64,000 bases of DNA. It comes from Pseudomonas putida. Lineage in GTDB: Bacteria > Pseudomonadota > Gammaproteobacteria > Pseudomonadales > Pseudomonadaceae. Shown one piece after another: positions 26,755-44,480 of the stretch (the first letter of the stretch is position 1; every line of letters starts with the position of its first letter). The translations under genes were made by a program, and so were the position numbers. The notes beneath the pieces were generated by a model that saw only the letters and a program-made list of their open reading frames with translations, did not search any database and was not told the origin of the DNA. The stretch covers positions 1,674,001 to 1,738,000 of the forward strand of contig NZ_CP039371.1 of NCBI RefSeq assembly GCF_005080685.1, read 5' to 3'.

Positions 26755-26774
26755 ACCTGTCAAAAATACCAGGT
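26755..26774. promoter_or_regulatory. Lux-box-like operator 1
   Basis: ACCTG-TCAAAAATAC-CAGGT, 20 bp with perfect outer half-sites in the LuxR-family arrangement ACCTG-N10-CAGGT. On the minus strand a TTAAAT (26738-26733) lies where a -10 would be if the box sat near -40, which fits control of the 26645 gene and the Rhs gene. Confidence 0.65.
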
Positions 26775-26830
26775 GGTGTTCAGGGGCATGGGGTAAATTT
26801 CAAGCATGTACGTTTCAATGCGGTATTGTC

Positions 26831-26850
26831 ACCTGGCAAATTTGTCAGGT
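26831..26850. promoter_or_regulatory. Lux-box-like operator 2
   Basis: ACCTG-GCAAATTTGT-CAGGT, 20 bp, an almost complete palindrome: only two central positions break symmetry. Centred 76 bp from operator 1 and 46 bp from operator 3. Confidence 0.65.
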
Positions 26851-26876
26851 ATGGCAGAGCATGCCAAATGTACGCT

Positions 26877-26896
26877 ACCTGGTATTTCTGTCAGTA
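26877..26896. promoter_or_regulatory. Lux-box-like operator 3
   Basis: ACCTG-GTATTTCTGT-CAGTA, 20 bp, keeps the CTG-N10-CAG core. It ends 60 bp before the ATG at 26957, and a TAAAACT-type -10 (about 26918-26924) follows at the distance expected for a box centred near -42. Confidence 0.55.
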
Positions 26897-26956
26897 GTCA
26901 GCTTCAAGAGGGTGACGTAAAACTGTGAGCATCTTTAGCCCATCGGGACTTTGCTC

Positions 26957-28783
26957 ATGGCCTCCAAATTACGAGACACCACAAGGCCCAATCAGCAGGC
27001 AGCTGCCTATCCCGCTCCTGACATTCCGCTGCGCAACGAGTATGGCGAAATCGATGTCGAGGCGTTGAAAGACGCGCCTTTGGAGATGGTCATCAAAGGT
27101 GATCATATAAAGTTTGGCAACGAGGTATACCCTGTTTGGCGCGGCGCGGCTGTAGATGGCGAGCCTTTCGACGAACTCAATGCGGTGGTCGAAGTTCCGG
27201 TTGATTATGATCCTGACGTGGGCATTACCGCCTACGTCTCCAATCGGTACGTTAAACCTTATCAGGGAGGCTCGGCATTTTTATCTTATAAAGTGGACGG
27301 CATGGACGAGAATACACCGGACTCTGAACGGGTCTTTTGTTACTTGGGCTTGCGCGAGCGCGGCGGCTTTGAAACGTTAGCGGTGGCGCAGGCCCGTGAG
27401 TCCCATGATCGTGTGATTGTCACTACGGATCTGGCGACCGAAGGCGTCAGCCTCCTGGCACCGCGTTACCAGGCGATCCAGATTGGCGACAGTGTCGAAC
27501 TGCTGATGAAGGGGTTCAACGCTTCAGGCGATCCAGTACCCGAGCATAGCGAGGTTCATGCAGTGACTGCGGCCAACCTTGCCGAGCCATTGCAATGGCA
27601 GGTGGCCAAGTCGCATTTCATGCGTGTGCGAGGTGGGCGGGCAGAATTTCATTACGAGGTCACGCTGGCCGGCGTTGGCGGCACGCTGACCTCTCCTGTG
27701 CAAACGTTCGCAGTCGACAGCGCGTCGGCCCCTGCCGACCGGCTTGCTGTGGCTGAGATCGATGGTTCTACAGGTGCGCCCCTGGACCCAGGCATGTTCC
27801 CTGACGGGGTTACGGTGCGTGTGCCTGTATACCCAGGTATTCAGCCAGGTGACTTCTTGCTGTTGTACTGGCACAGCCCTGGGCAGCCCCAACCGGTGGC
27901 GCAGTTCGCACGCATGGATGTGAGCTGCCTAGAGACGAATGAAATCGTCTTGCATGTCAGCGCCGACCTGCTGGTGCAGGGCGAGCACAACGTGATTTAT
28001 CAGTTTGCGCGCACAGGCGATGCATTGACGTCAGAACCGCTGCGGGTCGAGTTCGAGGCACCGCGCGCACTTGCAGCGCCCGCCATTGAGCGAGCGACTG
28101 AGGATGGACCGGGCAGGCAGCAGCTTGCCGCTGGCGATGCGCTGCTAGGTGCGTACGTGACCGTGCCCGATGTCGAGCTGCGCCCGGGTGAAAACTTCGA
28201 GGTCCATTGGTGGGGGTATGAGAAAGGCGGGCGGCAAGTCACCGACACCCCGGAGACGGCCGGGGGCCGCCGTTTCAAGATAGACCCTGGCGTGGTGGCG
28301 GCGAATATGCACCAACCACTGGATACCGAGGGCAGGCGGTTCGAGGTGTTCTACCACATCGTCGACGAGCACGGTGTGCGTTCGCAGCCGTCTGCGGCTG
28401 TGAATCTGCGTGTCGTTCCAGTGAGCCTCGGCAGTACTATCAACTGCCGGGAAGCCGATGCCGTTGGCGATCTTCCCCAATCGAGGTTAGGTCCCAACGG
28501 TGCTTTGCTCGCCGTCACGGGAGGAACCGGCCTGTGGGCATTCGCCGCGCAAGGCCAACCTTTCACCATCGCCGTCGAAAATATTGCTGTCCTGCGTGAT
28601 GCAACACCCATTACAGCGATGGAGCTGAGAGCCGTAAGAGTCGAACAGTGGCTGAGCCGCGCAGTTTACGACCAGATGGAAGACAACAAGCAGCATACCG
28701 TCTCTGGAACAGTCAGTTTCGATCAAGGCGATAGTTGGCACGCCCTGACGCCCCTTCGACTGACGCCGAAGAAATCGACTTGA
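26957..28783 (+). CDS. Large protein of unknown function, first gene of the P47-like/Rhs operon
   Basis: A 608-aa protein (MASKLRDTTRPNQQAAAYPA...). The ATG at 26957 is preferred over the TTG two codons earlier. There is no signal peptide and no membrane segment. The sequence is built of beta-rich segments that repeat a pattern 'DxxxG.xV.VPVYPGIQPGD', 'LRPGENFEVHWWGYE' and 'GRRFEVFYHIVDEHGVRSQPS', resembling repeated Ig-like or lectin-like modules of about 100-130 residues. I do not recognise a named family. It opens the plus-strand operon with the two P47-like genes and an Rhs body (26957-38166) and lies directly behind the lux-box-like sites. Confidence 0.75.
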   Translation: MASKLRDTTRPNQQAAAYPAPDIPLRNEYGEIDVEALKDAPLEMVIKGDHIKFGNEVYPVWRGAAVDGEPFDELNAVVEVPVDYDPDVGITAYVSNRYVKPYQGGSAFLSYKVDGMDENTPDSERVFCYLGLRERGGFETLAVAQARESHDRVIVTTDLATEGVSLLAPRYQAIQIGDSVELLMKGFNASGDPVPEHSEVHAVTAANLAEPLQWQVAKSHFMRVRGGRAEFHYEVTLAGVGGTLTSPVQTFAVDSASAPADRLAVAEIDGSTGAPLDPGMFPDGVTVRVPVYPGIQPGDFLLLYWHSPGQPQPVAQFARMDVSCLETNEIVLHVSADLLVQGEHNVIYQFARTGDALTSEPLRVEFEAPRALAAPAIERATEDGPGRQQLAAGDALLGAYVTVPDVELRPGENFEVHWWGYEKGGRQVTDTPETAGGRRFKIDPGVVAANMHQPLDTEGRRFEVFYHIVDEHGVRSQPSAAVNLRVVPVSLGSTINCREADAVGDLPQSRLGPNGALLAVTGGTGLWAFAAQGQPFTIAVENIAVLRDATPITAMELRAVRVEQWLSRAVYDQMEDNKQHTVSGTVSFDQGDSWHALTPLRLTPKKST

Positions 28784-28869
28784 GCCACGACGCATTCTGT
28801 TATGGCGGCGTTACACACGGGCCGAGTGGCATCGCTCTCTCGGTCGCTTAACACTCGGAGAAACTTTCA

Positions 28870-31326
28870 ATGAACAGCAAATCTCTTATACAGCCTCAAA
28901 TAGCAGGTACCCAATCGCTTGAGGATTTTCTCGAAAACATGCGCAAAGGGGTGCAAACGTTCGGCTGGGATGCACTGCTGGTGTTCGACAAAGCCGCTAC
29001 CAACACCCTGTTGATGCAAGAGTACATTGACCGGTTCGACACGGACAGTTATTTCCCGCCTTTTCCTAATGACGTGATCGATACCGAGGAAGGTTACCAG
29101 CATGTCTTGATCGGTTTGGTGATGGATAAGCCGCGGTTGTCGTTCGAGAATGCCACCATTGTGGACTCAAGAGGGAAACTTGTGCTGCGCATGGTAGGGG
29201 GTAAGCAGGTTCAGCTTCACAAATCATTCAAGGGAGGGAACGAGGTCCGCAGCATAAAGCGTCTTTCAGTGCTCAATGCGGCTGCCGGCCCCGCACTGCT
29301 CATGAATATAAAGCTGAGTCAGGTGCCGGGTAGCGTCGATACGAGTGGCAAGGTGATGTTGAACTTGAGCGAGGGCACTGATCATGTTTTTACCGGGCTG
29401 GAGACCCAATATGAGAAGATAAAACTGGGTTTGCATCTTGAATCCATCATAAAAAAATGGGGTTCAGAATTGACTCAGTTCCAGCTCAGCGAGTTGGCCC
29501 AGGATGAGGGGGCTGATTTGCAGCCAGGGGAGTTCGGTATTCGTACCCATCCGGCACCGGGTGCAAGTGTTCTCGGTAGCGGCACCTATGGTGAAGGGGC
29601 AGTGGTGGTATTCATTGCCATGAGGGGGAGTAAAAATGGCAGTTATCCGCATGCCGATGGAGACCTGTTGTACATGCTGCCCACGGCGACAACGCCTTAT
29701 ACCAGTAACTTGCTGCTTGGAAATAGATTTATTTTGGAAGAAATGATTCTTCCCCGAATCGAGCGTGCGCAATGGGTGCGAGACGGTAAGTTTGTCGTGA
29801 GGGATCTGGGCGGGGATGCTGGATTTGGGTTGTACCCAACTGCAGGGTCTATGGCATTTGGCGGCCTAGATACTATCTGGCAAAACGGTTTGTTAGAAAC
29901 CTACACGCTGAAAGGTCCGGGGGGACGGTTATATTTTGGTGAAGGTGATCCGCCCATGCAGTTCAGAGTGGTGGGCAATATATTGAAATTCAGTTGGGTG
30001 AGCCTAGTCACGGACGTCTCATATCATTGGACCTGGGTAAACGTGCCTTTTGGTGGCGATGAAGGAGACATACCCTACTCGTTGCAGATTGAAGCGCAGG
30101 CTGATTTCAGGTTTTACTTGAAGCAGGAAGAGGGGAGGAATGTCATTGCTTTTGAAATGATCAGGACATCGGAAGTGGTGAATTTCGATTACGCTGGGGG
30201 GGCGTCAGTGCAGGCGGGCCACAAGGAAATAGTAAAGAAAAAAGCAGACGAATATATTAGCGCGCTAAAGGGCGGCCTGCGTTTAGGTGAGCAGCTAGTG
30301 ACCGCGCTGGCCGGGATTGACTTTTCACTCGATGCATTCCGTCTGAACAGCCTGTTGTTCCGTAGTCAAAATGTGGTTTCGCCACGCGATCTTAACTGGC
30401 CGCTGGACTTGACTGTTTTGGGCGATTTGGCCCCTGAGCGTACCACCCTGGTGGTCAGCCCGGCGGAGGTGATCGTAGCGGCCGGTAAAACCACACAATT
30501 CACGATCGAGCCTGACAGTAGCGATGTCGCTTGGGCCGTGGAAAACCTCCCTGGTGAGACGGGCGCTAAAGGCAATATCGATGATAACGGCCTATACACA
30601 GCGCCCTCCGCTGATTCCCTGCGTGAAGCTGGTCACCGTCGGGTGATCGTGACGGCCGCCCGCGAAGGCATGGTCAGCAAGGCCTTGGTCAGCCTGGTCG
30701 AAAACGAAGTGTCGGTGTACCCCTTGGTGGCGGCGGTCAGCTTGGGTGCCAACTACCCGATGAGCGCAGGTAGCCCTGATTCCGCCGCGCTGGAATGGCA
30801 AGACCCGCCCGAGGAGCTGGGAACGATCGCCCCGGACACCGACCCAGACAATCCGGGCGGTTACGTCTTTACCGCGACGACGATGCTGCCCCCTTGGCAA
30901 AGTGGGGACCCCCTGCACTATTTTGGACTGCGTTTGGTACCCATCACCGTGCAGCCAAAGGTGGGCGGTGAGCCAGCCACCATCGACATGCTGGTTGTCG
31001 GTGCTCAGACCGGGAATTACTGGCTGGAACCCAACTCCAACGCTGATGGCAGTGTGACCGTCAAGTTCAAGCGGCTTAACCGCAACGGTGAGGTGACAGA
31101 CGTTCCGGACGACGACACCGAATGGACATTACTCAAGGGCGATGGAGCTTTCGAGAATGGCGTCTACACGCCGAAAGAGGGTTCGGCGGAGCAATACGCA
31201 ATTATCGTTGCCTTCTACGACGACGGTGATAGTGCTGACCGGTTCGACTACATCATCCTCCCTGTGCCGTTCGTTTCGGTCAAACGCTACGCCGATATGC
31301 TCAACCCAGCGATCAAGGAAGTGTGA
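28870..31326 (+). CDS. P-47/TULIP-like protein with C-terminal beta module
   Basis: An 818-aa protein without signal peptide. The N-terminus (FLENMRKGVQTFGWDALLVF, then an NTLLMQEYIDRF helix and LSFENATIV) resembles the GWD...N..L..EYI start of clostridial P-47/OrfX proteins, lipid-binding TULIP-fold proteins encoded beside botulinum-type and mosquitocidal toxins. That link is from memory of the family and needs a profile search. From about residue 520 come Ig-like blocks ('VVSPAEVIVAAGKTTQFTIE', 'NIDDNGLYTAPS') and a final module (WTLLKGDGAFENGVYTPKEG to YIILPVPFVSV) that is shared with the 40557 gene. GC and codon bias are lower than in neighbouring core genes, especially at 29100-30300. 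Confidence 0.7.
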   Translation: MNSKSLIQPQIAGTQSLEDFLENMRKGVQTFGWDALLVFDKAATNTLLMQEYIDRFDTDSYFPPFPNDVIDTEEGYQHVLIGLVMDKPRLSFENATIVDSRGKLVLRMVGGKQVQLHKSFKGGNEVRSIKRLSVLNAAAGPALLMNIKLSQVPGSVDTSGKVMLNLSEGTDHVFTGLETQYEKIKLGLHLESIIKKWGSELTQFQLSELAQDEGADLQPGEFGIRTHPAPGASVLGSGTYGEGAVVVFIAMRGSKNGSYPHADGDLLYMLPTATTPYTSNLLLGNRFILEEMILPRIERAQWVRDGKFVVRDLGGDAGFGLYPTAGSMAFGGLDTIWQNGLLETYTLKGPGGRLYFGEGDPPMQFRVVGNILKFSWVSLVTDVSYHWTWVNVPFGGDEGDIPYSLQIEAQADFRFYLKQEEGRNVIAFEMIRTSEVVNFDYAGGASVQAGHKEIVKKKADEYISALKGGLRLGEQLVTALAGIDFSLDAFRLNSLLFRSQNVVSPRDLNWPLDLTVLGDLAPERTTLVVSPAEVIVAAGKTTQFTIEPDSSDVAWAVENLPGETGAKGNIDDNGLYTAPSADSLREAGHRRVIVTAAREGMVSKALVSLVENEVSVYPLVAAVSLGANYPMSAGSPDSAALEWQDPPEELGTIAPDTDPDNPGGYVFTATTMLPPWQSGDPLHYFGLRLVPITVQPKVGGEPATIDMLVVGAQTGNYWLEPNSNADGSVTVKFKRLNRNGEVTDVPDDDTEWTLLKGDGAFENGVYTPKEGSAEQYAIIVAFYDDGDSADRFDYIILPVPFVSVKRYADMLNPAIKEV

Positions 31327-31327
31327 G

Positions 31328-33277
31328 ATGCACAGTCATTCCAAACACGTCATTCTGGAACGGATGAAAGAGGCCTCGGTGCGTTTTGGCTGGGGCGGTG
31401 TACTGGCCCTGGACCGCAGGCTCCTCGACCTGGTGTTGCGTGAGCAGTTTCTTGAAGCGATCGGTAATTTCAGGGCCCTGGAACCTATCAGCCTGGATGC
31501 CGAACTAGATGAGGGTGGGGTATCGAACGTCTCGTTCCAGGGGCTGGTACTGGGTGCACCGCAGGTAAGCTTCGAGAACACGACGGTTTCGAGTTCAGAG
31601 CTGACGGTACGGTTGAATATCATCGCGGGGGAGTACTTGCGCACCCAGCGTGTGCCCGGTAGACCCAAGCGCGTCATGGAAAGCTTTACCATCAGTGAAG
31701 CGATGGGCTATCGGGTCGAGGCCCAATTGCCCTTGCGTGTCGAGCAGCTCGAGACCAGCCGATATGCATCGGTGGTACTGGATTTGGCGAGTGCCGCCGA
31801 ATTCACCACCAATCTGGGGCCCACCGATTATGTCAACATCATGATCGGCAGAAAGTTGCAAGAGTCTATCGGCTATATGCAGGCGTACCGGCGCACGTAT
31901 GCGTTGGCTCACATGCGCATGGACGACTATTACCCGTTGAGCCCGAAGCAGCTCTTGGTCCGGACCATGGCAGCGCCATGGGGGCAACAGGAGCATGACC
32001 CTCGTCATGGCGACGGCGCTGTGCTGGTATTCATGCAACTGGGTACCGACCTGCGTGCGGGGGGGCAACCGGACCCTTCTTTCGATTTCCCCTACCCGAT
32101 TCCCGAGGAAGCGAACGGCCTACCTGGCACCTTGATCCTCGACCCCGATATTCCGGACCTGGGCGCAGGCGATGCGAAGGATGTGCTGAGGACCTTGCAG
32201 CTGTCCAACGACTATGCGTTTACCGCCAATGACACGCAAACACCTCATGACCTGGTGCTTTTCGGTAGTTGGCGGGCCAGTGCACAGAGCGTCGTGGTAG
32301 AGCCAGGCATCATCAGCGTCGTGGCCGGGCGAAGCACGACGTTCGCCGCAGAAGGCGCGACAGGCGCGGTGCAGTGGTCTGCCCGCAACCTGAGGCGCCC
32401 TGGGGTTACCGGGGCTTTCGAGAACGGCACCTACAGCCCGCGTGGCGTAGCCGATTTCGCCCAGGACCAGCAAATGGTGCTGGTTACTGCAACCTTCCCC
32501 GAAGCGGGGGGCGAGGGGCGCCGCCATGCATTGGTCATGGAAACTGCCCGAGCGATGCAGGTTGCGCCGCGTGTGGCCAGTTGGGTTGAAGGTAACGCGC
32601 CGATCGAGCTACGTGCCGCGGACAGTGACGGTGGCACGCTGGAGTGGAGACTCACGGGGGCAGTGCGCTTGTCAGCGGGTAAACAACGAGGCTTGCCGCT
32701 CGATGAGGCGCTTGGCAAGCTTGAAGATCTGGGCAACGGGCGGGCACGGTTCACGCCGGATCCGCCCGCAGGGGGGGGGCCAGACCTGCGCGTGCAGCGG
32801 ATCAGGGTGAGCAACCGGCAAAGCGGTGAACATGCCGAGTGTGCGGTGGTGGTCATCAAATGGGAGGCAAGCTTGAATCTTGTGCCCTTTCACCTGCGGC
32901 AGGCGGAGTCGGTTCAACCGACGCAGTTCGTGGTCGAAACGGAAAGGGCAGTGACATGGTCTGTCTATGGTGAAGGCGGTATTGATGCCAATGGCGTTTA
33001 CACCGCCCCCGAGGCGCCAGAAATGCCCATTTCGGTTGTTGCTGCGGAGGATGATGATCGCGCCGGCTATGCCGTCGTTGAGTTCAGCGAGGGCAGAAGG
33101 GTATCGGCGGCGATGGTGCCTTGGACCGCTCTTAGCACCTTCACGATCAGGGCTATCAGCGCGCCACGCTGTTTCGCCAACGGCTGGCAGCAGATAGAAG
33201 TCGAGGTAGCGGTCGCCGCCGCAGGCGGCCCACCGGGGAAGAGTTGCAGATTTCCGACGATGACCTCGCTACCTTGA
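31328..33277 (+). CDS. Second P-47/TULIP-like protein, main part before a frameshift
   Basis: It starts at the ATG at 31328, 1 bp after the previous stop, and encodes 649 residues before the frame ends. MHSHSKHVILERMKEASVRF followed by GWGGVLALDRRLLDLVLREQFL matches the FGWDALLVFDKAATNTLLMQ start of the upstream protein, so the two are paralogues. Ig-like blocks follow (VVVEPGIISVVAGRSTTFAA, GGIDANGVYTAPEAPEMPIS). The last good residues, GWQQIEVEVAVAAAG, are cut by a frame change near 33222-33234; the natural continuation is in the frame of 33244-34170. The full protein would be about 946 aa. Confidence 0.7.
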   Translation: MHSHSKHVILERMKEASVRFGWGGVLALDRRLLDLVLREQFLEAIGNFRALEPISLDAELDEGGVSNVSFQGLVLGAPQVSFENTTVSSSELTVRLNIIAGEYLRTQRVPGRPKRVMESFTISEAMGYRVEAQLPLRVEQLETSRYASVVLDLASAAEFTTNLGPTDYVNIMIGRKLQESIGYMQAYRRTYALAHMRMDDYYPLSPKQLLVRTMAAPWGQQEHDPRHGDGAVLVFMQLGTDLRAGGQPDPSFDFPYPIPEEANGLPGTLILDPDIPDLGAGDAKDVLRTLQLSNDYAFTANDTQTPHDLVLFGSWRASAQSVVVEPGIISVVAGRSTTFAAEGATGAVQWSARNLRRPGVTGAFENGTYSPRGVADFAQDQQMVLVTATFPEAGGEGRRHALVMETARAMQVAPRVASWVEGNAPIELRAADSDGGTLEWRLTGAVRLSAGKQRGLPLDEALGKLEDLGNGRARFTPDPPAGGGPDLRVQRIRVSNRQSGEHAECAVVVIKWEASLNLVPFHLRQAESVQPTQFVVETERAVTWSVYGEGGIDANGVYTAPEAPEMPISVVAAEDDDRAGYAVVEFSEGRRVSAAMVPWTALSTFTIRAISAPRCFANGWQQIEVEVAVAAAGGPPGKSCRFPTMTSLP

Positions 33278-34170
33278 AGTTCGTGAATGTGGTGAGCAAT
33301 CAACAGCTGCCTTTCCTTGAAAAGGATGAAGACGCACTGGACGCTGCAAGTGGAGATGGTTGGGCAGTCAATAACAATGGTAATGAGATAGATCGGCAGC
33401 CGGCGGTCGCTCACGCAGACGATGGCATCCTAGGGCCTATCAGAAGGCGCCGCTTCTTCATGCACTCTCGTGAACCCGGGATGATCAAGGTGCGTGCGGA
33501 GATCCAGAATGCTGAAACGTACCTGTGGTTCAAATCTGAGGGTATGGGGGCGGACGATACCCTCGAGATGACCGGTTTGCCGTTACCGTCCTTTACCAGG
33601 CAGTCTTATTCCTTTGTGCGCACACGTGTTGCTGGGGACGATTCACCTTCCGACGGTGATGAGTTCGCTTACGTGGATAACAGTACGGATTATTGGCTGC
33701 TTGAATATGTGGGGCGCGATACCCAGATAATCAAGTTCGCGCGTTTACGCATTGCGAGTGCCGCTAATAAATCCAGCGTGCTCTGGGCCTCGCATTTGGT
33801 TGATGACCGATTCGTCAGTTACACGGGCTTTTCTTTCCAGTCTGATGACAGCAACATCAACGATCCCTTGCTGTTCGACGGTCTGCTCTATCGCATGGCA
33901 AAACAACGGTCGCATCGCTTGCCCAAGCTATTGGATGAAAAGGGACCTGGTGCGGGGCAGTTGATGCTCAGCTTGCACCGGTCGGATAACTTCCTCTTCG
34001 GCGACGCTGCGGGGTCGGGTTATACCCAGGCACTGGAAAAATCACTGTTGTTCGACTTGATCGATAAGGAAGGCAACGAGCACCCACTCCGTTTTGAATA
34101 CGGTGTGGAAGAGGACGATGCGAGGAACGGGCTTGCTGCTCGCGACAAACTTCGATTGTTCCGTCGTTGA
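33244..34170 (+). pseudogene. C-terminal part of the second P47-like protein, out of frame
   Basis: A 308-codon open frame with no credible start: its first possible codon is a TTG at 33244 without a ribosome-binding site. The residues just upstream in the same frame (RPTGEELQISDDDLATLKFV) continue smoothly from GWQQIEVEVAVAAAG of the preceding gene, which makes this its detached C-terminal domain. It contains an LWFKSEGMGADDTLEMTGLP block and a beta-rich 'YWLLEYVGRDTQIIKFARLR' region and ends 79 bp before the Rhs body gene. I do not recognise the domain. Confidence 0.65.
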
Positions 34171-34248
34171 TTGAGGTGACCTGGTCTTGGGGCGTGCAGC
34201 TCGCCCTGGGACCAGATGCCAACCTGAAAAACAAGAGGACGATAGGCC

Positions 34249-37200
34249 ATGGCGATCGAAACAGTCATTCATTCCAATGCATTCAACGCCAGCAGTTTTG
34301 TCGAGGGGGGGGTCGATCCCCGTACAGGGCAATACACTTTGGGGATCAACGTGCTGCCCATTGTCGGTAATGACCAGATCGGACCCGACCTGCCGATTCG
34401 CTTGATGTTCAACCCGTTCAGCGACGACAACGTCGGCTTCGGCAAGGGCTGGTATATCGCGCTCACACAGTATTTACCCGGTAGCCGTATGTTGAGGTTG
34501 CACACGGGAGAAAGCTACAAAGTCACCGGGACGGGGGAACAACCGCCGATCCGAGAGAAAAAGTTGGACAGTTTTCACTTCCATGACGACAGCGGGCGGG
34601 GCAAACGACAATATCGGGTCGTGTACAAGTCCTATATGGAGGAAATACTTGAAGTCTATGGGGATGGGGTGAACGAAGTCGCTTTGCCTGCCGAGGTCAG
34701 GGCGGCGTCGGGCCATCGCATCCAGCTTGGCTACACGAAAGACACGCAAAGGCTGGAGAGCATTGTCGATGGCAATGGCTTGCCCCTACTCAAGATAGGG
34801 TATAGCAGCGGCAGTGTAACGTTGGACCTGCACCCTGGCGCCAAGGGCGGCATCGAGCCATTGGCGCGTTATACGCTCACGTTGGAGAACCAGCAGCTAA
34901 TTAAAGTGAGCCTACCTGCGGAAGTGGGTGGCAACTGGCGATTCGAGTACAGCACCGTGCATGGGCTGACCTGCGTGGCCAAGGTCTCGACACCCTACGG
35001 TGCCATAGAGCGGATCGGTTATGGGGAAAACCAGGATCCTGGCCATCTGCTGCCCGGTGGTGGCAAGCGCGCAGCGATACCCCGGGTAACCTCCCATGCA
35101 ATCGAGCCGGGGGGCCAACAGCCATCAATGAACACCACCTATACCTACACCATTTTGGTAGAGGGCGTAGAGACCGCGCGCAACTTCGTCGGCTTTGGCA
35201 GTGGTATTACCTGGGGTGACAATGGCGAAGACAACCTCTACCGCGCACCGTCTAGCTACTTGTACCGCAGCACTGCCCACCAATGGGGCAAGGGGCCGGA
35301 CGGGCAAGACAGGGTACTGCGCACTGTTCAGCGCACCTACAACCGTTTTCATTTACTGGTGCGTGAGGTCACCGAGCAGGAGGGGCATGTGCTGACCAGC
35401 GAAACGACGTATCACGGTAAGGTCACCGATGCTTTCGAAACCCAGCCGGCCAATTTCCAGCTTCCTCGCGAAACCCAGCGCAAATGGGCGCTGGCAAATG
35501 ATGCCTCGCGGGTTCGTGAGGAACCTCCTACGCAGACGCTGTATGACTTGCATGGCAACTTGACCGAGGTGGTGCTGCCCGTCGGTAAGCGCACCGTTAC
35601 GGAGTATTATTCTGCTCTGGGCGGGGAGGGGTGCCCTGCCGACCCGGATGGCTTCGTGCGCAGCCCCATGAGGCAGACGGTGTACCCCGCAGTCGGAGGG
35701 GACGCGCCAGCGCCGATACTGCGTACGCACTACCGATACGTGGCGCTGGGCAGGGTCAATCACCCGGATGCCATCGCCGCGCAGGTAGCGGATACCTGGT
35801 TGGTACAGCAGCAGGAAACCTTGTGTGAAGTGCTGGATGACGTCGAGCAGGCTCCATTGCAGGTCACCACTACGTGCCCTGTGGACAAGCCCGATGATCT
35901 GTTGCGCCATGGGCGCCCTTTGCTGCAGACCTTGTGCATGGGCAGCCTGAATACCAGGACCTGTTTCACCTACAGCAAGGAAGTGCGCAATCAGCACCCC
36001 GTGCTGGTTACCCAGCAGCGGCTTACCGGTTTCGACCACGGGCAATCCATGTTGGCTACCCTTCGGCGCCACGGCGCCCTGGATCCCGCACAGTTGCACG
36101 CAGCATGTGACGAACCGCGGGATGTCAGCAAGGTCATCACCCTCGAGACCTCGCTGCTGATCGGTGAGCCGCTGCTCAATCGCGACGACAACGATGTTGA
36201 AATTGCCTATGAGTACGATGCGATCCGTCGGGTTACCCGCGAGACAGTGTCACCCAACGACGACCGTTATAAGGCATCGCGCACTTACCAATACGGGCTG
36301 GTAGGCGCGCCAGGCGAGCAGGCCTCGCAAACGAGGGTGGACGTCAAGGGCGTGGCGATTCTTACCCGGATCGATGGTTTGGGCCGGGTGGCCAGCGAAG
36401 CACGTCATGATGCCGACGCTGAAGAGGAGGACCGCCATCAGCTGTTTCGCGAGTGCAACAAGTTCGTCTACGATGAGCTTGGCCAGTTGACCGAGGCAAT
36501 CGAATACGACTGGCTCACCGATACGCAAATGCCGCTTGCCACGCAGTACGTGTATGACGATTGGGGCCAACAGTCCTGTGAGATTGGGCCTGATGGTGTC
36601 AAACGCTTCGAGGTGCATGACCCGATCGGTTCCAATCCGACGGGAAATGACCCAACCTGCAACATGCCAACCCAGACCCACTGGAGCGAGTCCGCCGATG
36701 GCAGTTTGAGCCAGGGCAAGACCATCACCTGGTTCAACCTCTTCGAGGCACCAGCGCAGGTCCAGCGCTTCGACCTTTCGGGCAAGCTCTATGGCAAGCA
36801 TCAGTACTTCTATGATGGGCTGGGGCGTAACGTGCGAGAAGTCGACGCGCGCAACGCGGTCGTCCGCAACACCTATGACGCCTTCGACCGCCTGGTCGAC
36901 CAGACCCTGGCGGATCGCTCCGTGGTTCACCGGGACTACGCCGTGCACAGCAGCGAAGACCTGCCGATCCAGATTTCCGTTGCAGGTAACACCCTGGGTG
37001 AGCAGGTATTCGATGGCCTGAACCGCATGATCGCTTCCATTACCGGGGGGCGTCCACGGCTCATGTGCTATGCGCCCGGCCAAAACAACCCGTACAAGGT
37101 GACAACGGCCGCGGGCAATGGCATCCAGTACGAGTACGTTCCGCAACTGGGTGAAGATCCCCAACTGCGGCGCCTACCCGGGAAACAAGCGGATTACACC

Positions 37201-38166
37201 TATGACCCCGCCAACGCTCGGCTTACCTGGTGCAAAGAGGAAGGTGAAGAACTGTCTCGGGTGTATTTCAGTACCGGTCAGATCAAATCGGAAACCCGCA
37301 TGATCGGTGCTGAGCACTGGTCCATGGAATATGGCACCTCCTTGCTGGGGCGTCAGCTGTACTACGTGGATGTCCTCGGGCAGACACAGACCTACGCCTA
37401 TGATGAGGCTGGCCGGTTGAAGGAAACGGCATTGGGTACCACCCAGAGCCATTTCTTCTACGAGGGGCTGGGCTATACGCAATGCATACTGACCCTGGAC
37501 GGTGCACAGGGGCTTGCCACCGAACTGGAGTACGACCACCAGGGTCGGGAAGTCTTGCGTCGTTTCATCTTCTTGAAGACGGTTGTCGAGGCGCCGATCG
37601 AGGGCTTCAGCTTTACCAATGAGTGCGTTCAAGCGCTTGTCGACGAGGCAGGGTTACTCGTGCAGGGAGTGCAGGAACTGGGGCAGGCCTATAGCGTCCT
37701 GGACCAGATAACACGCAAGTCGCTGAGCGAGAATGGCGACGTCTTGCGCGAGGAAACCTTCGACTACGACGCGCGCGGCCGCCTGGAGGCCTACACTTGC
37801 GCTGGGCCGATCGCCTACTGCCCGAAAGATCCCGCTGGCAAAAACATTCGTGAGCAGTATTTCCAATTCGATGCCCTCGACAACATCATTTGGCTATATA
37901 CCGGGTTCGAAGAAGAAGACGGTACCACGGGTGATAACGAGGCTACCTATCTCTTCGACTATAAGGACCCTGCACAACTCAGCGGTGTAATGAATACACA
38001 TGCTGACTACGCTGACTTCACGTTGCGCTATGATTTGGATGGCAATATGGTACAGGATGATAAAGGTAAGACGCTGAGCTACGACGCGCTGGGCCGCTTG
38101 AGCAGCTATGACGGCAGTGGCTATGGCTACGACGCATTGGACAGGTTGTCGAGCCAGGATGCATGA
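34249..38166 (+). CDS. Rhs/YD-repeat body protein without core and tip
   Basis: A 1305-aa paralogue of the frameshifted Rhs protein at 20972-26085, starting MAIETVIHSNAFNASSFVEG. It has the Rhs N-terminal region (PRTGQYTLGIN, GFGKGWYIALTQYLPGSRML) and YD repeats to the end (YDDWGQQSCEIGPDG, YDAFDRLVDQTLADRS, LSYDALGRLSSYDGSGYG). It stops after YDALDRLSSQDA, just before the Rhs core begins in complete proteins, so the core and C-terminal effector are absent. A terminator follows 16 bp after the stop, which suggests a natural end. The missing part corresponds to the orphan tip genes at 43455 and 42687. A clear ribosome-binding site (AAGAGGACGAT) precedes the ATG. Confidence 0.88.
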   Translation: MAIETVIHSNAFNASSFVEGGVDPRTGQYTLGINVLPIVGNDQIGPDLPIRLMFNPFSDDNVGFGKGWYIALTQYLPGSRMLRLHTGESYKVTGTGEQPPIREKKLDSFHFHDDSGRGKRQYRVVYKSYMEEILEVYGDGVNEVALPAEVRAASGHRIQLGYTKDTQRLESIVDGNGLPLLKIGYSSGSVTLDLHPGAKGGIEPLARYTLTLENQQLIKVSLPAEVGGNWRFEYSTVHGLTCVAKVSTPYGAIERIGYGENQDPGHLLPGGGKRAAIPRVTSHAIEPGGQQPSMNTTYTYTILVEGVETARNFVGFGSGITWGDNGEDNLYRAPSSYLYRSTAHQWGKGPDGQDRVLRTVQRTYNRFHLLVREVTEQEGHVLTSETTYHGKVTDAFETQPANFQLPRETQRKWALANDASRVREEPPTQTLYDLHGNLTEVVLPVGKRTVTEYYSALGGEGCPADPDGFVRSPMRQTVYPAVGGDAPAPILRTHYRYVALGRVNHPDAIAAQVADTWLVQQQETLCEVLDDVEQAPLQVTTTCPVDKPDDLLRHGRPLLQTLCMGSLNTRTCFTYSKEVRNQHPVLVTQQRLTGFDHGQSMLATLRRHGALDPAQLHAACDEPRDVSKVITLETSLLIGEPLLNRDDNDVEIAYEYDAIRRVTRETVSPNDDRYKASRTYQYGLVGAPGEQASQTRVDVKGVAILTRIDGLGRVASEARHDADAEEEDRHQLFRECNKFVYDELGQLTEAIEYDWLTDTQMPLATQYVYDDWGQQSCEIGPDGVKRFEVHDPIGSNPTGNDPTCNMPTQTHWSESADGSLSQGKTITWFNLFEAPAQVQRFDLSGKLYGKHQYFYDGLGRNVREVDARNAVVRNTYDAFDRLVDQTLADRSVVHRDYAVHSSEDLPIQISVAGNTLGEQVFDGLNRMIASITGGRPRLMCYAPGQNNPYKVTTAAGNGIQYEYVPQLGEDPQLRRLPGKQADYTYDPANARLTWCKEEGEELSRVYFSTGQIKSETRMIGAEHWSMEYGTSLLGRQLYYVDVLGQTQTYAYDEAGRLKETALGTTQSHFFYEGLGYTQCILTLDGAQGLATELEYDHQGREVLRRFIFLKTVVEAPIEGFSFTNECVQALVDEAGLLVQGVQELGQAYSVLDQITRKSLSENGDVLREETFDYDARGRLEAYTCAGPIAYCPKDPAGKNIREQYFQFDALDNIIWLYTGFEEEDGTTGDNEATYLFDYKDPAQLSGVMNTHADYADFTLRYDLDGNMVQDDKGKTLSYDALGRLSSYDGSGYGYDALDRLSSQDA

Positions 38167-38208: not shown

Positions 38209-38251
38209 GGATACTCTCAACGTGCCTGCGCTTACACGCCAACTTCGCTGC

Positions 38252-38794: not shown

Positions 38795-38910
38795 GAACTG
38801 CTCCTTGACGGCGTGAGCGCGTTGGGAAGACCACTCCAGTCCAATGCGATGCCCCATACAAGGCCATTGGCTTGGCAGGGGGTGAACAGGGCCGGAGGAC
38901 GGGTGGGTTC

Positions 38911-39636: not shown

Positions 39637-39666
39637 CTGGCGTTACCTTCAGAAAAGGATGGGCAA

Positions 39667-39692
39667 CTCCAGGCCCGGTAGTGTGCCTGGAG
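39667..39692 (-). promoter_or_regulatory. Intercistronic hairpin between pilin and chaperone genes
   Basis: CTCCAGGC-N10-GCCTGGAG, an 8-bp perfect stem without a T run, directly after the first pilin stop. In fimbrial operons such hairpins often protect or partly terminate the pilin mRNA so that pilin is made in excess over the chaperone. That role is inferred here. Confidence 0.5.
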
Positions 39693-39699
39693 AAAATTG

Positions 39700-40239
39700 T
39701 CATGGAATATCGACAAAGAACTGCACATCGGTATTGGCGCGGCCTGCCGTTACGCCTGCTCCAGTGGATACATAGGCGGCGGAGAAGATCATGGTGGTAG
39801 GGTTGGTAGCGTCCAGCGGGTAGTCCTTGGAAGCCGTACCATTGGTTATTGGCGTACCAGCATTGTCCTTGATGATCAAGGCCAGGTCAGCGGCGCCACC
39901 TGGCTCTAACGCGTAGAGTGCATTGCCTGCGCCTGCTCCACCGTAGGCACCGGTGAAGGTTACGTTGGCATTGCTGCCAGGGGCCACGACACAGCCGGCA
40001 CCTGGGGTAACCCGCATGCCGAAGGCACGGGAAGCAGCTTCGTCGCCAACGTTTACGAACTGCGAAGCACTGACGTTGCCCATGTTGATGCGCGCCACCG
40101 GCAGCCCGCTTGCAGGGTCGATGATCTCGATCGGGCAGGTGCCGGCGTGCACCTGGCCGTAGAAGTTGATCGAGCCGGTGTTGGCGAAGGCTGTAGTGCT
40201 GGCGAGGCCGAGACCGAGTGCGATGAGGATCTTTTTCAT
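39700..40239 (-). CDS. Fimbrial major subunit (pilin), first copy
   Basis: A 179-aa pilin, MKKILIALGLGLASTTAFAN with cleavage near AFA-NTG. The mature chain has TGSINFYGQVHAGTCPIEII, the disulfide partner in GAGCVVAPGSNANVTFTG, and ends DVQFFVDIP. As first gene of the minus-strand operon it is the probable shaft subunit. The start is fixed by the typical MKK signal start and an AGTTCTC-ATG context. Upstream (40240-40556) is a non-coding region of about 320 bp shared with the divergent gene at 40557 that contains lux-box-like site 4. Confidence 0.94.
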   Translation of the reverse strand: MKKILIALGLGLASTTAFANTGSINFYGQVHAGTCPIEIIDPASGLPVARINMGNVSASQFVNVGDEAASRAFGMRVTPGAGCVVAPGSNANVTFTGAYGGAGAGNALYALEPGGAADLALIIKDNAGTPITNGTASKDYPLDATNPTTMIFSAAYVSTGAGVTAGRANTDVQFFVDIP

Positions 40240-40474: not shown

Positions 40475-40500
40475 GTCAACTGGTAGTTTTATCAGTTGAC
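40475..40500. promoter_or_regulatory. Lux-box-like operator 4, with overlapping -35
   Basis: GTCAACTG-N10-CAGTTGAC, a 26-bp element with perfect 8-bp half-sites and the CTG-N10-CAG core. It ends 56 bp before the ATG at 40557, nearly the same distance as site 3 has to its gene. TTGACC (40496-40501) inside the right half can act as -35, with CTAATT about 18 bp further as -10. The rest of the 40240-40556 gap shows no gene. Confidence 0.6.
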
Positions 40501-40556
40501 CTCATTGATTATCCTGTCCCTAATTGGATCTCGATGCTTAATACCGGGAGCAGACT

Positions 40557-42050
40557 ATGAGCGCGGGGAAATTTGATAGACCAGATTCTGACGATGATGA
40601 TGCTGTGATGGTATCGCTATGGGGCAAGGCTGCGTTCATTAACTCCCTCTGGGCATTGCGATCCCCTTCGCCTCACACCATACACGACACTAGGGAACTG
40701 ATCCACGGCGTATGGGAGACGACATTGACTCGCTTTGGCGAAGTCGAGTTGACCAGGGGGCAGAATGTTCTTCAGGTATCGCTATACCGTCGTGATGAGA
40801 CGGTAATACGTGTATCGCAGCGTAGCGGTATCGACGCGAAGCAGATCATCAAGGTCGATGGTATCAATCCACTCACAGGTCAACTCTGTATCCTCATGAG
40901 CGCCGAAAAAAGTTGGATCACTTATGACAAATCGAGTGCTGGAGCGCTCAGCGTGGAGTGGAAGGACCAGGCCGCATACATTCTCTGGAATCCTTTCCCC
41001 TTAGAACCTCCGGAGAGGTATCAAACTTACTTCGAAGGGTTGAAGAAGATCACTGTAGGCTCTGTTGATAGTGAGGCAAATCCCTCTCTAGAAAAACTCT
41101 ACATCGTTGAACGATTCTCCGGGGGGCAGCTGGTTTTTATGATAAGCGAGCGACCTCTGGCATCCGCTACCGTTGCCCTCTGTTCGCAAGAAAACAGTGA
41201 CGATCAGCCGCTTGCCAACAATGCCTTGGTGGCTTTATTCCGTTCGAGCAAATTTCCTGAAGCGGCCGCTGGGAGAGAACCGGCGGAGGCCAGATGGCTT
41301 TATCAACTAGTCGCGCCCCGTGGGTCGATGAAGGTGGTCGGAGGGGAAAAAGATGCAGGGGGGTGGCTTACCGAATACGGCAAGGATTCTAAGAGGCGTG
41401 CAGGCGTTTCGCCGCGCACCGCGAACCAAAACATCCAGACACTTTCTCCTCATGCTCGAATTGTTCAGGCCGGTGATGAGCCACAGCGCCTGGAGTTCGT
41501 AGCCACACCGCTAAGCAGTGCGAATTGGACCCTGACAGGCGCAAAGCGGGGGAAGCTGGAAAGTGATAGCGACGGGTACTTCTATGTCCCTCCTATAAGC
41601 CTCTCTCCGGCAGCGGTATTCGATGAGTCAGTAGAGTCGTTGATCCCCGCTGCCTATCGATCCAGTTTCAGCGGCCTGCCTGTAGTCACTGATGTCGTGC
41701 AGGTTGCCAACGCTACACAAACCGCCATGTCGACCTTCGTTACCACTGTCATACCGCCCACACACTTCTTCAGGTTTGGCATCCACCCGGATGGATTGGA
41801 GCTGAAGCTGTGGTGGGTGACCAGAACAGGTGAGCGTCAGGTCCCGGCTGAGCGGGTGAAGTGGCATGTGCTGTCGGGTAACGGCATGGTCTCTGCGCAG
41901 GGCCTGTTCGTACCCGCTACGCAGGCCCCGAGTTCCGTCACGATTGTGATGGCAGAAGATTTGTCAGATGACTCCGTGTGGCTCTACGGGATTGTCATCG
42001 TTCCTTTACCGTTGATTGCGGTGGATGACGTGATGCGCCTGCTGGAGTGA
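40557..42050 (+). CDS. Protein of unknown function sharing the C-terminal module of the P47-like protein
   Basis: A 497-aa protein without signal peptide. The C-terminal 100 residues (LWWVTRTGERQVPAERVKWH, then VLSGNGMVSAQGLFVPATQA and WLYGIVIVPLPLIAVDDVMR) match the end of the 28870 protein (RLNRNGEVTDV...WTLLKGDGAFENGVYTPKEG...FDYIILPVPFVSVKRYADML). They thus share a beta-sandwich module. The N-terminal 250 residues are not recognisable and lack the GWD start. It is likely part of the same system, encoded separately and driven from lux-box-like site 4. Confidence 0.72.
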   Translation: MSAGKFDRPDSDDDDAVMVSLWGKAAFINSLWALRSPSPHTIHDTRELIHGVWETTLTRFGEVELTRGQNVLQVSLYRRDETVIRVSQRSGIDAKQIIKVDGINPLTGQLCILMSAEKSWITYDKSSAGALSVEWKDQAAYILWNPFPLEPPERYQTYFEGLKKITVGSVDSEANPSLEKLYIVERFSGGQLVFMISERPLASATVALCSQENSDDQPLANNALVALFRSSKFPEAAAGREPAEARWLYQLVAPRGSMKVVGGEKDAGGWLTEYGKDSKRRAGVSPRTANQNIQTLSPHARIVQAGDEPQRLEFVATPLSSANWTLTGAKRGKLESDSDGYFYVPPISLSPAAVFDESVESLIPAAYRSSFSGLPVVTDVVQVANATQTAMSTFVTTVIPPTHFFRFGIHPDGLELKLWWVTRTGERQVPAERVKWHVLSGNGMVSAQGLFVPATQAPSSVTIVMAEDLSDDSVWLYGIVIVPLPLIAVDDVMRLLE

Positions 42051-42092
42051 GCGAGCACCGACTCGGCCTGCATGCCGAGGGCGAGGCAGGTA

Positions 42093-42503
42093 TCAGTGCT
42101 GGTTACGTTGTTGCGCGCTAGTCAACAGTTGCTTCTCCTGGTTCCAGTCGAAGGGGGCGTCGTTCTGCTCAGCCGCAAAACGGCGCTCCTCCAGCTCCTG
42201 GTACAGGTCCAACTCGTCATCAGGCATGAAGTGCAGGCAATCGCCGCCGAAGAACCACAACAGATCGCGGGGCACCAGGTGGGCGATCTGCGGATAGCGC
42301 TGGATCACCTGGCAGATCAGGTCCTGGCCCAGGTACTGGCTCTCCAGCGGGTCCTGAGGCAGCAAGGTCAGCAGTTCGTCGAAGCGCTCGAGGAACAGGG
42401 CATGGCTTTCTTCCGGCACTTGCTCCGCGTCTGCGAGTGCCGCGAGTATGCTCCGCAGGTGGTGGAGAAGTTGCAGGTGATAGTCCAGGTTGGGGGTAGC
42501 CAT
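42093..42503 (-). CDS. PA2817-family protein of unknown function
   Basis: A 136-aa acidic, helical, cytoplasmic protein (MATPNLDYHLQLLHHLRSIL ... LVPRDLLWFFGGDCLHFMPDDELDLYQELEERR). I place it by recall of the small conserved Pseudomonas protein encoded close to fadE. The ATG at 42503 gives that protein's length; a longer reading to 42590 adds proline-rich residues without a start signal. In the ancestral order it would sit near fadE; here the two orphan Rhs tips lie between them. Function unknown. Confidence 0.7.
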   Translation of the reverse strand: MATPNLDYHLQLLHHLRSILAALADAEQVPEESHALFLERFDELLTLLPQDPLESQYLGQDLICQVIQRYPQIAHLVPRDLLWFFGGDCLHFMPDDELDLYQELEERRFAAEQNDAPFDWNQEKQLLTSAQQRNQH

Positions 42504-42686
42504 GGTAATCCTCGAGGTCTTTGAAGCAGGCGGAGTATACGCCGGTCGCACGAAATCAGGGAGTGGTGGCTGGGAAGGCGTGTCTGGCAAGTCGATGGTG
42601 GGGCATCAAGCCCTTGCTGCAGTGCTGCTAGCCAACCGCTCTATGCGGCCCTCTAGCCTCAATGTGAGTACGCTGAATGTGGCAGG

Positions 42687-43439
42687 TCAAAAATGGAACC
42701 AGCTAAGGCGATCGACGTCTAGCCTGGCGCGGATCGCAGCGACATCGGCACGGATGCGTATCATGGCGGCGTGGTATTGCTGAAATAGTTCGGTGCCAGG
42801 TGCGACGTAGCGAATATTCTCTATGAATCTTTGTTCATGTCGATAAGCGGTTTCAAGCCGCTCGTACAATTGTGACGCTTGCACGGGCGTGACGGGTGCT
42901 TGCGCTGGCTGCTCTTGCGGGGAGTTTGCATTGATCGGGTTGGCCAACGGATTCCGGTTGCCAGATTGATGAATGGCCTCGCGAGGAGGGGGAGCCAAGG
43001 CCTCTTGCTGTCGGGCGAGGGGAGGGCCAAACCTCTGGGGGACGGTTTGCGGTTGATTACGCTGAGCCAGTCGGGCGCGCAATGCATCTACTCGCTGTTG
43101 AGCGGGCTGCCGTCGACGTGCCTGTTCACGTAATCTATTCGCTGTTACACGGTTATGGCTGAAGTCTAGATGGCCGGTGGGATCAGCCCGATTGACCGGA
43201 TCGCCCGCACAATAGCAATAGCTATTCAACCCGCCCTCGCCAAATGGAGACCAACTATCTGGCGCACCGAACCGCTGAAGTGCAGGGAGGTAAAGCCGAT
43301 AACCATTGCCAAGGTGATAACAACCTGAAAATAAATCTTCCTGTTCGCCATTGAAGCCAAGTAGCGTTCTTTGGTTGTGACTGCCTTGGCTGTAACCGTA
43401 GGGTGTATAGGCCTGATCCATTATCCTTGAGGCCTGCAT
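42687..43439 (-). CDS. Orphan Rhs core-plus-tip protein 2
   Basis: A 250-aa protein that begins inside the Rhs core: YTPYGYSQGSHNQRTLLGFN, GEQEDLFSGCYHLGNGYRLY, LQRFGAPDSWSPFGEGGLNS and YCYCAGDPVNRADPTGHLDF. It thus has the core and the (D/T)PxGH end but none of the YD-repeat shell. The 150-residue C-terminus is Gln/Arg/Pro-rich and ends in a helical segment (LYERLETAYRHEQRFIENIR, AAMIRIRADVAAIRARLDVD). No toxin family is recognisable. It lies 15 bp after tip 1 in the same transcript. Confidence 0.8.
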   Translation of the reverse strand: MQASRIMDQAYTPYGYSQGSHNQRTLLGFNGEQEDLFSGCYHLGNGYRLYLPALQRFGAPDSWSPFGEGGLNSYCYCAGDPVNRADPTGHLDFSHNRVTANRLREQARRRQPAQQRVDALRARLAQRNQPQTVPQRFGPPLARQQEALAPPPREAIHQSGNRNPLANPINANSPQEQPAQAPVTPVQASQLYERLETAYRHEQRFIENIRYVAPGTELFQQYHAAMIRIRADVAAIRARLDVDRLSWFHF

Positions 43440-43454
43440 GTCGTTTCGCCTTCT

Positions 43455-44384
43455 TCAGTTATTTTTAAGGTAATTATTTAATGCTGCAAGACCAGCTGCG
43501 TAACGTTGCGCCAGGTTAACCAACTCAGCCTCTCGGATTGCCTTGATACCTTTAGAGAAATCCATGCCTTTGTGATCCAAGTGCGCGGCAGCGCGATAGA
43601 AATTTTGTTGCTGTGTACGTACCGCTTCCACAAGTTGAGCGTGCTGGTGATAGAACTGTTTTCTTTGAAGATAGACACTTTTCCCGAAATGCTCGGCGCT
43701 TGGCTTTGCAGCAGGCTCGGCGCTTGACTTTAAAATCGGCTGCCCGGGCACATAGGGCTGGCGATTGGTCCGTCTTGTCAATTGCAGTGTTTCTTGCGGT
43801 GACTCATAGGCGTGTACTACGGCGGCTAGGCTTCGTTTAACGAGAGGTTGTTCTTTCTTGGCCAGGCGGCTTCGCGGGGACGCAACGGAAGGTCTGGAGG
43901 CATTGCGCGATGGAGGCGTGAACGCGTTCCGAGCGGCCTGAAGCTGGATTGCGCTGATATGGCCTGAGGGGTCAGCGTTATTGATCGGGTCGCCTAGGCA
44001 GTAAGCGTAACTATTTATTCCAGCCTCACCGAACGGGCTGAGACTGTCGGGCGCTTGAAAACGCATCAGGGCTGGGTTGTAGGCGCGATAGCCTTGGCCT
44101 AGCAAATAGTATTCTGTGCTTGGTTCACGCCGCTCCCCGTTGAAGCCAAGTTTGGTTAGGCTGCGCTGTCTGATGTCATATCCGTAAGCGGTATACCCAT
44201 GAGGGCCCCCTCCTGGGTATTGCTGGACTGAGCCTTGGCCGTCGGCAATATAGAGACGTGTCTCGGCGGTATTTTGCAGTTCTGCAAGGGGCTGGGTAAT
44301 TGCGCGAAACAATACCCAGCTTCTTGACCCTTCAACCTCGAGCTTTACCGCGTTTTGGTGATAAAAAAGCATGCGCCTGTTCAT
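43455..44384 (-). CDS. Orphan Rhs core-plus-tip protein 1
   Basis: A 309-aa protein, MNRRMLFYHQNAVKLEVEGS, whose first 150 residues are the Rhs segment that normally follows the last YD repeat: LYIADGQGSVQQYPGGG, YTAYGYDIRQRSLTKLGFNG, YYLLGQGYRAYNPALMRFQA and CLGDPINNADPSGHISA. The start matches exactly the point where the body protein at 34249-38166 stops. The C-terminal 165 residues are basic and helical (YLQRKQFYHQHAQLVEAVRT and KAIREAELVNLAQRYAAGLA) without a known fold. A lux-box-like site lies 77 bp upstream of the start. Confidence 0.85.
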   Translation of the reverse strand: MNRRMLFYHQNAVKLEVEGSRSWVLFRAITQPLAELQNTAETRLYIADGQGSVQQYPGGGPHGYTAYGYDIRQRSLTKLGFNGERREPSTEYYLLGQGYRAYNPALMRFQAPDSLSPFGEAGINSYAYCLGDPINNADPSGHISAIQLQAARNAFTPPSRNASRPSVASPRSRLAKKEQPLVKRSLAAVVHAYESPQETLQLTRRTNRQPYVPGQPILKSSAEPAAKPSAEHFGKSVYLQRKQFYHQHAQLVEAVRTQQQNFYRAAAHLDHKGMDFSKGIKAIREAELVNLAQRYAAGLAALNNYLKNN

Positions 44385-44460
44385 AGTCTATGGCCTCGCT
44401 ACGAGCCTGGGACGGTCTTTGCATTCCTCTTTCAGCTTGGTGGTTTGCGCAGCGGCGCTC

Positions 44461-44480
44461 AACTGGCAAAAATGACAGTT
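44461..44480. promoter_or_regulatory. Lux-box-like operator 5
   Basis: AACTG-GCAAAAATGA-CAGTT, 20 bp with perfect half-sites, the same half-site as in operator 4. It lies 77 bp upstream of the orphan tip operon and 77 bp beyond the end of fadE. Confidence 0.55.

Follow-up and report, generated by a model that had tools for sequence, protein, structure and literature searches.

Five lux-type boxes in a Pseudomonas putida Rhs island are probable operators of a wider PpoR-family LuxR-solo regulon

Introduction

PpoR, a LuxR solo described in 2009, has widespread relatives, and class II LuxR-type activators work from a box that is centred near −42 and replaces the −35 element. Here we analyse five 20-bp boxes in an island of Rhs-type and other genes, located in a 64,000-bp stretch of the Pseudomonas putida genome (contig NZ_CP039371.1, positions 1,674,001 to 1,738,000; hereafter the window), which comparison among genomes marks as very probable operators of a LuxR solo of the PpoR family. 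The boxes of the lux and las-rhl systems (LuxR, LasR, RhlR) are likewise 20-bp CTG-N10-CAG repeats that lie near −42 in place of the −35 element. The boxes described here differ in their inner bases (R-Y-A...T-R-Y) and in an asymmetric gene-proximal half (TGYCAGT), and the system differs in its scattered targets, which include Rhs and large or secreted-looking proteins, and in that no synthase gene was found. Rhs/YD-repeat toxin loci with orphan tips likewise combine full-length RHS proteins with short core-end genes of variable C-terminus; here, in contrast, stand-alone tips and full-length genes are preceded by one and the same operator.

The closest described regulators are PpoR of P. putida and PplR of P. 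plecoglossicida, which have the same PF03472 and PF00196 domains and the same flanking genes as the LuxR solo discussed below, and which likewise occur in single copy with no LuxI found. The available sections of the reports on them, to which all our statements about these papers refer, give neither a DNA site nor a direct regulon (PMC2703642, PMC8546723, PMC11543582), whereas we propose both an operator and a set of targets. PpoR binds the acyl-homoserine lactone (AHL) 3-oxo-C6-HSL (PMC2703642) and PplR several AHLs (PMC11543582), and the subgroup A of LuxR solos that constitutes the PpoR group is defined by flanking genes for a ferredoxin-NADP reductase and a 23S rRNA methyltransferase (PMC8546723). 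Among the papers listed by our literature searches, none gave a PpoR binding site or linked PpoR, or any LuxR solo, with Rhs genes.

Results

The five boxes are inverted repeats with CTG and CAG half-sites 10 bp apart, the layout of a lux box, and they lie upstream of four predicted transcription units (Table 1). A first-pass annotation, made from the sequence of the window, had listed these five sites and their distances of 110, 60, 56 and 77 bp to the four gene starts, all of which we reproduced exactly. When scored with a weight matrix whose training set was 70 promoters from other parts of the DNA than the window (training median 32.7 bits, minimum 12.9), the boxes reached 27.0 to 35.0 bits in their best orientation and took ranks 1 to 5 in the window, compared with 11.8 bits for the next-best window match and 17.0 bits for the top match in 20 Markov-resampled windows. 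Each unit has one box that scores higher toward its own gene (26755, 44461 on the minus strand; 26877, 40478 on the plus strand). Three of the boxes share the 311 bp between the divergent units 26645(−) and 26957(+), where box 26831 would be either a distal box of the rightward unit or common to both units.

The five sites are real, but the loose skeleton is not uncommon by itself: allowing at most one mismatch, RMCTG-N10-CAGKY shows no enrichment in the window (37 matches, against 32.0 ± 5.8 in shuffled sequence, with 16 of 100 shuffles reaching 37). Across the genome, 43 exact matches to AMCTG-N10-CAGKT compare with 15 to the reversed control, an approximately threefold excess, and the inner consensus of these sites yielded the refined motif MCTGRYANWWNTRYCAGK. 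This motif has 26 sites in the 6.61 Mb of the genome that contains the window (G000; other G numbers denote comparison genomes) and 1 when the pattern is read backwards. The corresponding counts are 29 versus 2 in G009 and 26 versus 0 in G099. Three island boxes (26831, 26877, 40478) match the refined motif strictly, and 26755 and 44461 differ from it by one position each.

The inner bases also bear on the alternative that the boxes are LexA/SOS boxes, whose Escherichia coli versions have the same CTG-N10-CAG layout. LexA boxes carry a TA-alternating core straight after CTG, whereas the enriched pattern shows a purine, then a pyrimidine, then A at these positions; moreover, 98 of the 119 genomes of the genus have three or fewer sites, and no DNA-repair family was matched by the 30 downstream or other proteins scanned. 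LexA was rejected on the inner bases and the scanned targets, and we regard it as highly improbable.

To place the motif relative to genes, 125 strict sites were retrieved from eight genomes (25 of 26 from G000, 29 of 29 from G009, 26 of 26 from G099, 14 of 16 from G107, 12 of 12 from G078, 9 of 12 from G003, 6 of 8 from G057 and 4 of 14 from G075), with genes called by a simple home-made predictor for both site placement and promoter analysis. Although the retrieved DNA is 85.6% predicted coding, 123 of the 125 sites fall outside predicted genes; one exception, at locus L031, lies 77 bp upstream of a 165-amino-acid (aa) frame, relatives of which are likewise preceded by boxes in G078 and G099. 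A predicted gene start was found within 300 bp of 95 of the 125 sites, commonly 62 to 95 bp from the box centre. Promoter analysis was confined to the 73 sites with a single clear gene direction at 55 to 135 bp, 52 being set aside. In 21 of the 73, TANNNT begins at +32 (12 promoters) or +33 (9 promoters) from the box centre, whereas at any other position between +12 and +59 it does so in at most two; A is present at +33 in 60% of the 73. No −35 element is conserved across these promoters, and there is little conservation past about 24 bp except for the −10. A −10 that starts 32–33 bp from the box centre places the centre approximately 43 bp upstream of the predicted start, hence over the −35 region as in a class II promoter (centre about 42–43 bp upstream), an arrangement that is clear for two of the four window units. 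This geometry speaks to the possibility that the LuxR solo binds the boxes and represses, as some LuxR-type proteins do, and published PpoR-family data indeed include genes that go up and genes that go down (PMC2703642; PMC11543582). A fixed spacing of 32–33 bp between box and −10, combined with the lack of a conserved −35, is nevertheless the geometry of an activator, and a repressor would not require such fixed spacing; we therefore consider repression very unlikely.

We then compared motif counts with LuxR in 398 genomes, made up of a first set of 119 and a further 279, taking a LuxR match of at least 220 bits as close and at least six sites as motif-rich; the six-site limit was already in use for the first set when the search of the second began. 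In the first set, 17 of the 18 genomes with a close LuxR are motif-rich (range 3–29 sites, median 10), while the other 101 have a median of 1 site and only G107 (16) and G101 (7) among them reach six. The second set gave 37 of 41 above the LuxR line (minimum 3, median 13, maximum 42) and 0 of 238 below it, five of which have four or five sites. Both sets combined, at least six sites occur in 54 of 59 genomes with a close LuxR and in 2 of the 339 others; the Fisher values of 1.9e-17 (first set) and 5.5e-42 (second set) overstate the evidence, because they treat the genomes as independent despite their phylogeny. The co-occurrence in the second set contradicts the notion that the boxes are chance matches or a dispersed palindromic repeat with no regulatory role. 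That notion draws on the loose skeleton being no commoner in the window than in shuffles, but it is also at odds with the 26-to-1 excess of the refined motif, the position of nearly all sites outside genes, the fixed −10 and the scarcity of conservation beyond the box, and we give it practically no weight.

The only protein of G000 with an autoinducer-binding domain (PF03472) is a LuxR solo of 237 aa (C1:5739617-5740333), encoded outside the window about 4.0 Mb along the same contig. Both PF03472 and PF00196 score above their cut-offs, the domain composition of the PpoR type, and the closest solved-structure sequences are RhlR variants and QscR. The protein has the W-Y-DP-W residues of the AHL-contact pattern and may bind AHLs. 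A LuxI-type synthase (PF00765) was not detected in G000 by a search that was positive in 21 of the 119 genus genomes and that did not cover other kinds of synthase. The gene is flanked by ferredoxin-NADP reductase and methyltransferase genes, named by reading their translations, and homologues of the same two genes adjoin LuxR at 27 of 27 loci checked. From its domains, its flanking genes and the missing LuxI, the protein fits subgroup A, the PpoR group. The luxR and luxI searches proposed in the first-pass annotation thus ended on one AHL-type LuxR solo with no PF00765 partner, and motif count follows this solo across the 398 genomes.

The recognition helix was read in LuxR at 46 loci chosen as motif-rich, motif-poor or borderline (28 from the 59 genomes above the 220-bit line, 18 from the remaining 339). 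STVNFH is present in 29 of the 46, and all 29 genomes have 3–42 sites; the 17 without it, where the helix is RTVGFH, RTVNFH, RTTNFH, STINFH or STVHFH, have 0–5 sites. The two motif-rich genomes without a close LuxR, G101 and G107, encode LuxRs that share just 34 and 40% identity with the G000 protein but have kept STVNFH. At their loci (L164 and L127, respectively), the neighbours of the divergent but syntenic LuxR are 86–99% identical, which could mean that the sensor was replaced or diverged rapidly and that its DNA specificity was preserved.

In a midpoint-rooted tree of the two flanking genes from 27 genomes, the motif-rich genomes form one clade (support 0.76). Nested within it is G015, which has 0 sites and the helix STVHFH, so that motif and STVNFH are absent together; its sister G086 has 10 sites (support 0.93). 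A tree of this shape could accommodate another clade-restricted transcription factor as the protein that binds the boxes, with LuxR co-occurring by shared ancestry only, since any regulator specific to a single motif-rich clade would correlate with the motif. The motif, however, follows the helix and not ancestry alone, being absent from G015 beside G086 and present in G101 and G107, and the layout and position of the boxes are those of a LuxR-type activator; we consider such a factor unlikely. Motif-poor genomes (for example at loci L166-L173) have a syntenic LuxR solo with an RTVGFH or RTVNFH helix, for which a different operator should be expected. Since syntenic LuxRs outside the clade have other helices, subgroup A seems to comprise two or more DNA-binding types.

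Clustering of the proteins encoded downstream of the sites revealed families common to several species: Rhs-type tips, a 608-aa family, DUF2599, DUF5122 beta-propellers, proteins of 113–137 aa, RNase T2 and a 165-aa family. Two proteins with a VRP1 domain, a domain linked to Tc-A toxins, also appeared in these clusters. A translated search up to 700 bp downstream of 127 sites (the 125 strict sites plus 26755 and 44461) assigned 71 of them to ten families, nine of which occur in at least two genomes, and left 56 unclassified; the family queries were taken from the sites' own genes, so that each class includes its query, and the 700-bp rule had no random-site control. The Rhs tip is the largest shared class; it accounts for 32 of the 127 sites and is represented in 7 of the 8 genomes (15 sites in G099, 5 in G009, 4 in G107, 3 each in G057 and G078, and 1 each in G003 and G000), followed by DUF2599 (8), the 608-aa family (7), DUF5122 (6), a small family (5) and smaller ones. 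In G000, 20 of 27 sites are unclassified and most targets are other genes, namely phosphodiesterase-like, RNase T2, GCS2, MscS, glyoxalase-like, GTPase-domain and glycosyltransferase-like genes and several unknowns, for which reason a regulon for competition or host interaction would be an interpretation of the shared part and not of every target. The expectation of the first-pass annotation that sites would concentrate at Rhs and related genes is supported by the shared classes, in which the 608-aa family recurs, but not by most targets of G000 itself.

Runs of sites 0.4–2 kb apart were seen at L076, L083, L087 and L090 in G009 and at L091, L094 and L101 in G099, where adjoining and often related genes (DUF5122, DUF2599, Rhs tips) each have their own box. 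Tc-A-like proteins that combine VRP1 with bacterial immunoglobulin-like (Ig-like) domains lie directly 3' of boxes at L078:3952-8499 (G009) and L113:2-3973 (G075).

The genes of the island are listed in Table 1. The 608-aa protein, labelled P47-like in the first-pass annotation, has 39 database relatives that are 48–66% identical, the named ones all from Pseudomonas and several from P. putida; a search of genome contigs for named relatives of its gene gave one weak match, in a metagenome-assembled genome. Relatives lie downstream of boxes in G003, G009 and G078, and in G107 by protein clustering only. No Pfam family was matched at 0.001 by the nine window proteins scanned, P47 was not among the matches of the RHS search, and no PDB-sequence relative of the 608-aa protein was found below 0.07. 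Its structural model (mean pLDDT 87.4, almost all beta) resembles adhesins, receptors and complement proteins in their runs of Ig-like and fibronectin-type domains, and neither P47 nor OrfX is among the 50 structure matches listed. A clostridial P47/OrfX identity of the 608-aa protein was accordingly rejected, as neither a sequence match nor a P47/TULIP-like fold was obtained, and the label gives way to a predicted Ig-like fold. The 497-aa protein has four relatives in the protein database.

A chaperone-usher fimbrial set, all leftward, is split in the window, with pilin, chaperone and minor pilin at 38252-40239, usher and adhesin at 17095-20735, and the Rhs block between the two halves. Pilin, chaperone and usher homologues are contiguous in G009, G006 and G002, and G024 and G003 have Rhs-tip matches some 1.1 kb upstream of the usher; the split suggests that a fimbrial operon was interrupted by an Rhs insertion.

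Table 1. Boxes, predicted −10 elements and transcription units of the island (window coordinates; box scores in bits of the weight matrix).
Feature	Positions	Strand	Description
Box 1	26755..26774	-	Putative operator of leftward unit starting at 26645; gene-ward reading ACCTGGTATTTTTGACAGGT; 27.0 (-) vs 12.4 (+)
Box 2	26831..26850		Nearly symmetric; between the divergent units; 28.0 (-) vs 26.4 (+)
Box 3	26877..26896	+	Putative operator of rightward unit starting at 26957; centre 70 bp from ATG; 35.0, top-scoring site in window
Box 4	40478..40497	+	Putative operator of unit starting at 40557; centre 70 bp from ATG; outer GTC/GAC extend it to 40475-40500; 30.9
Box 5	44461..44480	-	Putative operator of leftward orphan Rhs tip starting at 44384; gene-ward reading AACTGTCATTTTTGCCAGTT; 27.6 (-) vs 21.7 (+)
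Predicted −10 TAACCT	26728..26733	-	Leftward unit; first T 32 bp from box centre; predicted for this promoter from the −10 position in the 73
Predicted −10 TAAAAC	26918..26923	+	Rightward unit; first T at +32 from box centre; predicted for this promoter from the −10 position in the 73
Leftward unit	20972..26645	-	185 aa (26088-26645), 291 aa (25249-26124), 1426-aa RHS-repeat protein (20972-25252); putative operon, from overlapping frames
608-aa gene	26957..28783	+	First gene of rightward unit; predicted Ig-like beta-sandwich string
Rightward unit, remainder	28870..38166	+	818 aa, 711 aa, 308 aa, 1305-aa RHS-repeat protein; putative operon
40557 unit	40557..42524	+	497-aa protein, then 150-aa protein; probably transcribed jointly
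Orphan tip unit	42687..44384	-	Stand-alone Rhs tip 309 aa (43455-44384), tip-like 250 aa (42687-43439); probably transcribed jointly

Discussion

The comparative evidence strongly supports the proposal of the first-pass annotation that one LuxR-type regulator encoded outside the window acts as the activator; this regulator would reach the whole set of four units, as had been suggested, within a regulon much wider than the island. In the reading that we hold with considerable confidence, the five boxes are operators of a genome-wide and clade-wide LuxR-solo regulon of the PpoR family. A PpoR-family dimer would bind a 20-bp box built on [AC]CTG[AG][CT]A-N4-T[AG][CT]CAG[GT], which the recognition helix STVNFH would read, and would activate in the class II, lux-type manner, standing in for a −35 element with its centre some 43 bp ahead of the start. 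The G000 regulon would consist of the 26 strict sites and the two looser island sites, and so take in the four units of the island together with some twenty places elsewhere in the genome. The motif, its place in promoters, the −10 spacing, the co-occurrence with LuxR and with its helix, and the target families common to several species are computational results; that the protein physically binds the boxes, activates and does not repress, and is controlled by a ligand is what we infer. The further suggestion of the first-pass annotation, a response to cell density or a host signal, found no support, no LuxI-type synthase having been detected. The signal may be an AHL from other bacteria, another small molecule, or none at all if the regulator acts independently of a ligand.

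Several points weigh against this reading. LuxR matches in the first set leave a gap from 212 to 224 bits, and the 220-bit line falls within it, but that line was settled only when the second set had been seen; raising it to 224 bits drops G343 and gives 37 of 40 in the second set. Some genomes have a good LuxR but few sites (G072 and G266 with 3, G353 with 4, G326 with 5), and others have four or five sites and no 220-bit LuxR match (G066 with 4, G077 with 5, and G142, G321, G332 and G355). G343 has four sites with the helix STINFH and G386 five with RTVGFH. G065 (L174) has 11 boxes although its LuxR match is split over two overlapping frames, which may point to recent inactivation of the regulator or to an error in the sequence. 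As the motif-rich genomes of the 27-genome tree form a single clade, the correlation reduces to a handful of independent events, namely one gain, one loss in G015 and, in G101 and G107, retention of the helix. A clean −10 at +32/33 is missing from two of the four island units, 40557(+), where TAATTG begins at +34 from the box centre and the −10 position is not clear, and 44384(−), where the position is weak (CAAGCT at +32). Autoregulation of luxR was rejected, no site of 5 bits or more being present in the 10.5 kb around the gene; this fits the report that a subgroup A solo had no effect on neighbouring genes, in which the molecular mechanism is called unknown and no evidence of AHL binding was obtained (PMC8546723). 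Lastly, no Rhs gene is named in the account of the PpoR overexpression microarray, which used one biological sample per strain and an array designed for another strain, KT2440 (PMC2703642), or in the printed part of the 84 genes changed in a pplR mutant, where the changes are about two- to threefold except for the deleted gene (PMC11543582). The missing Rhs genes either count against the proposed regulon or mean that the regulator was inactive in those conditions.

As a more tentative extension, to which we give somewhat less than even chances, a PpoR-type solo may serve as master regulator of the competition weaponry of the P. putida clade, sensing the AHLs of others with no synthase of its own. 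Full-length Rhs proteins, many stand-alone mini-Rhs tips with their own promoters, DUF2599, DUF5122 and Tc-A-like proteins would then be fired together, and the gene families would spread and diversify while keeping the same box.

The operator and promoter rule predicts direct targets genome by genome, each of the 59 genomes that have a close LuxR containing between 3 and 42 strict sites. The predicted operator would make the question of what PpoR does directly testable, and it points at Rhs and related interaction genes. For the stand-alone Rhs tips, it suggests that these are expressed genes under coordinated control and not silent cassettes.

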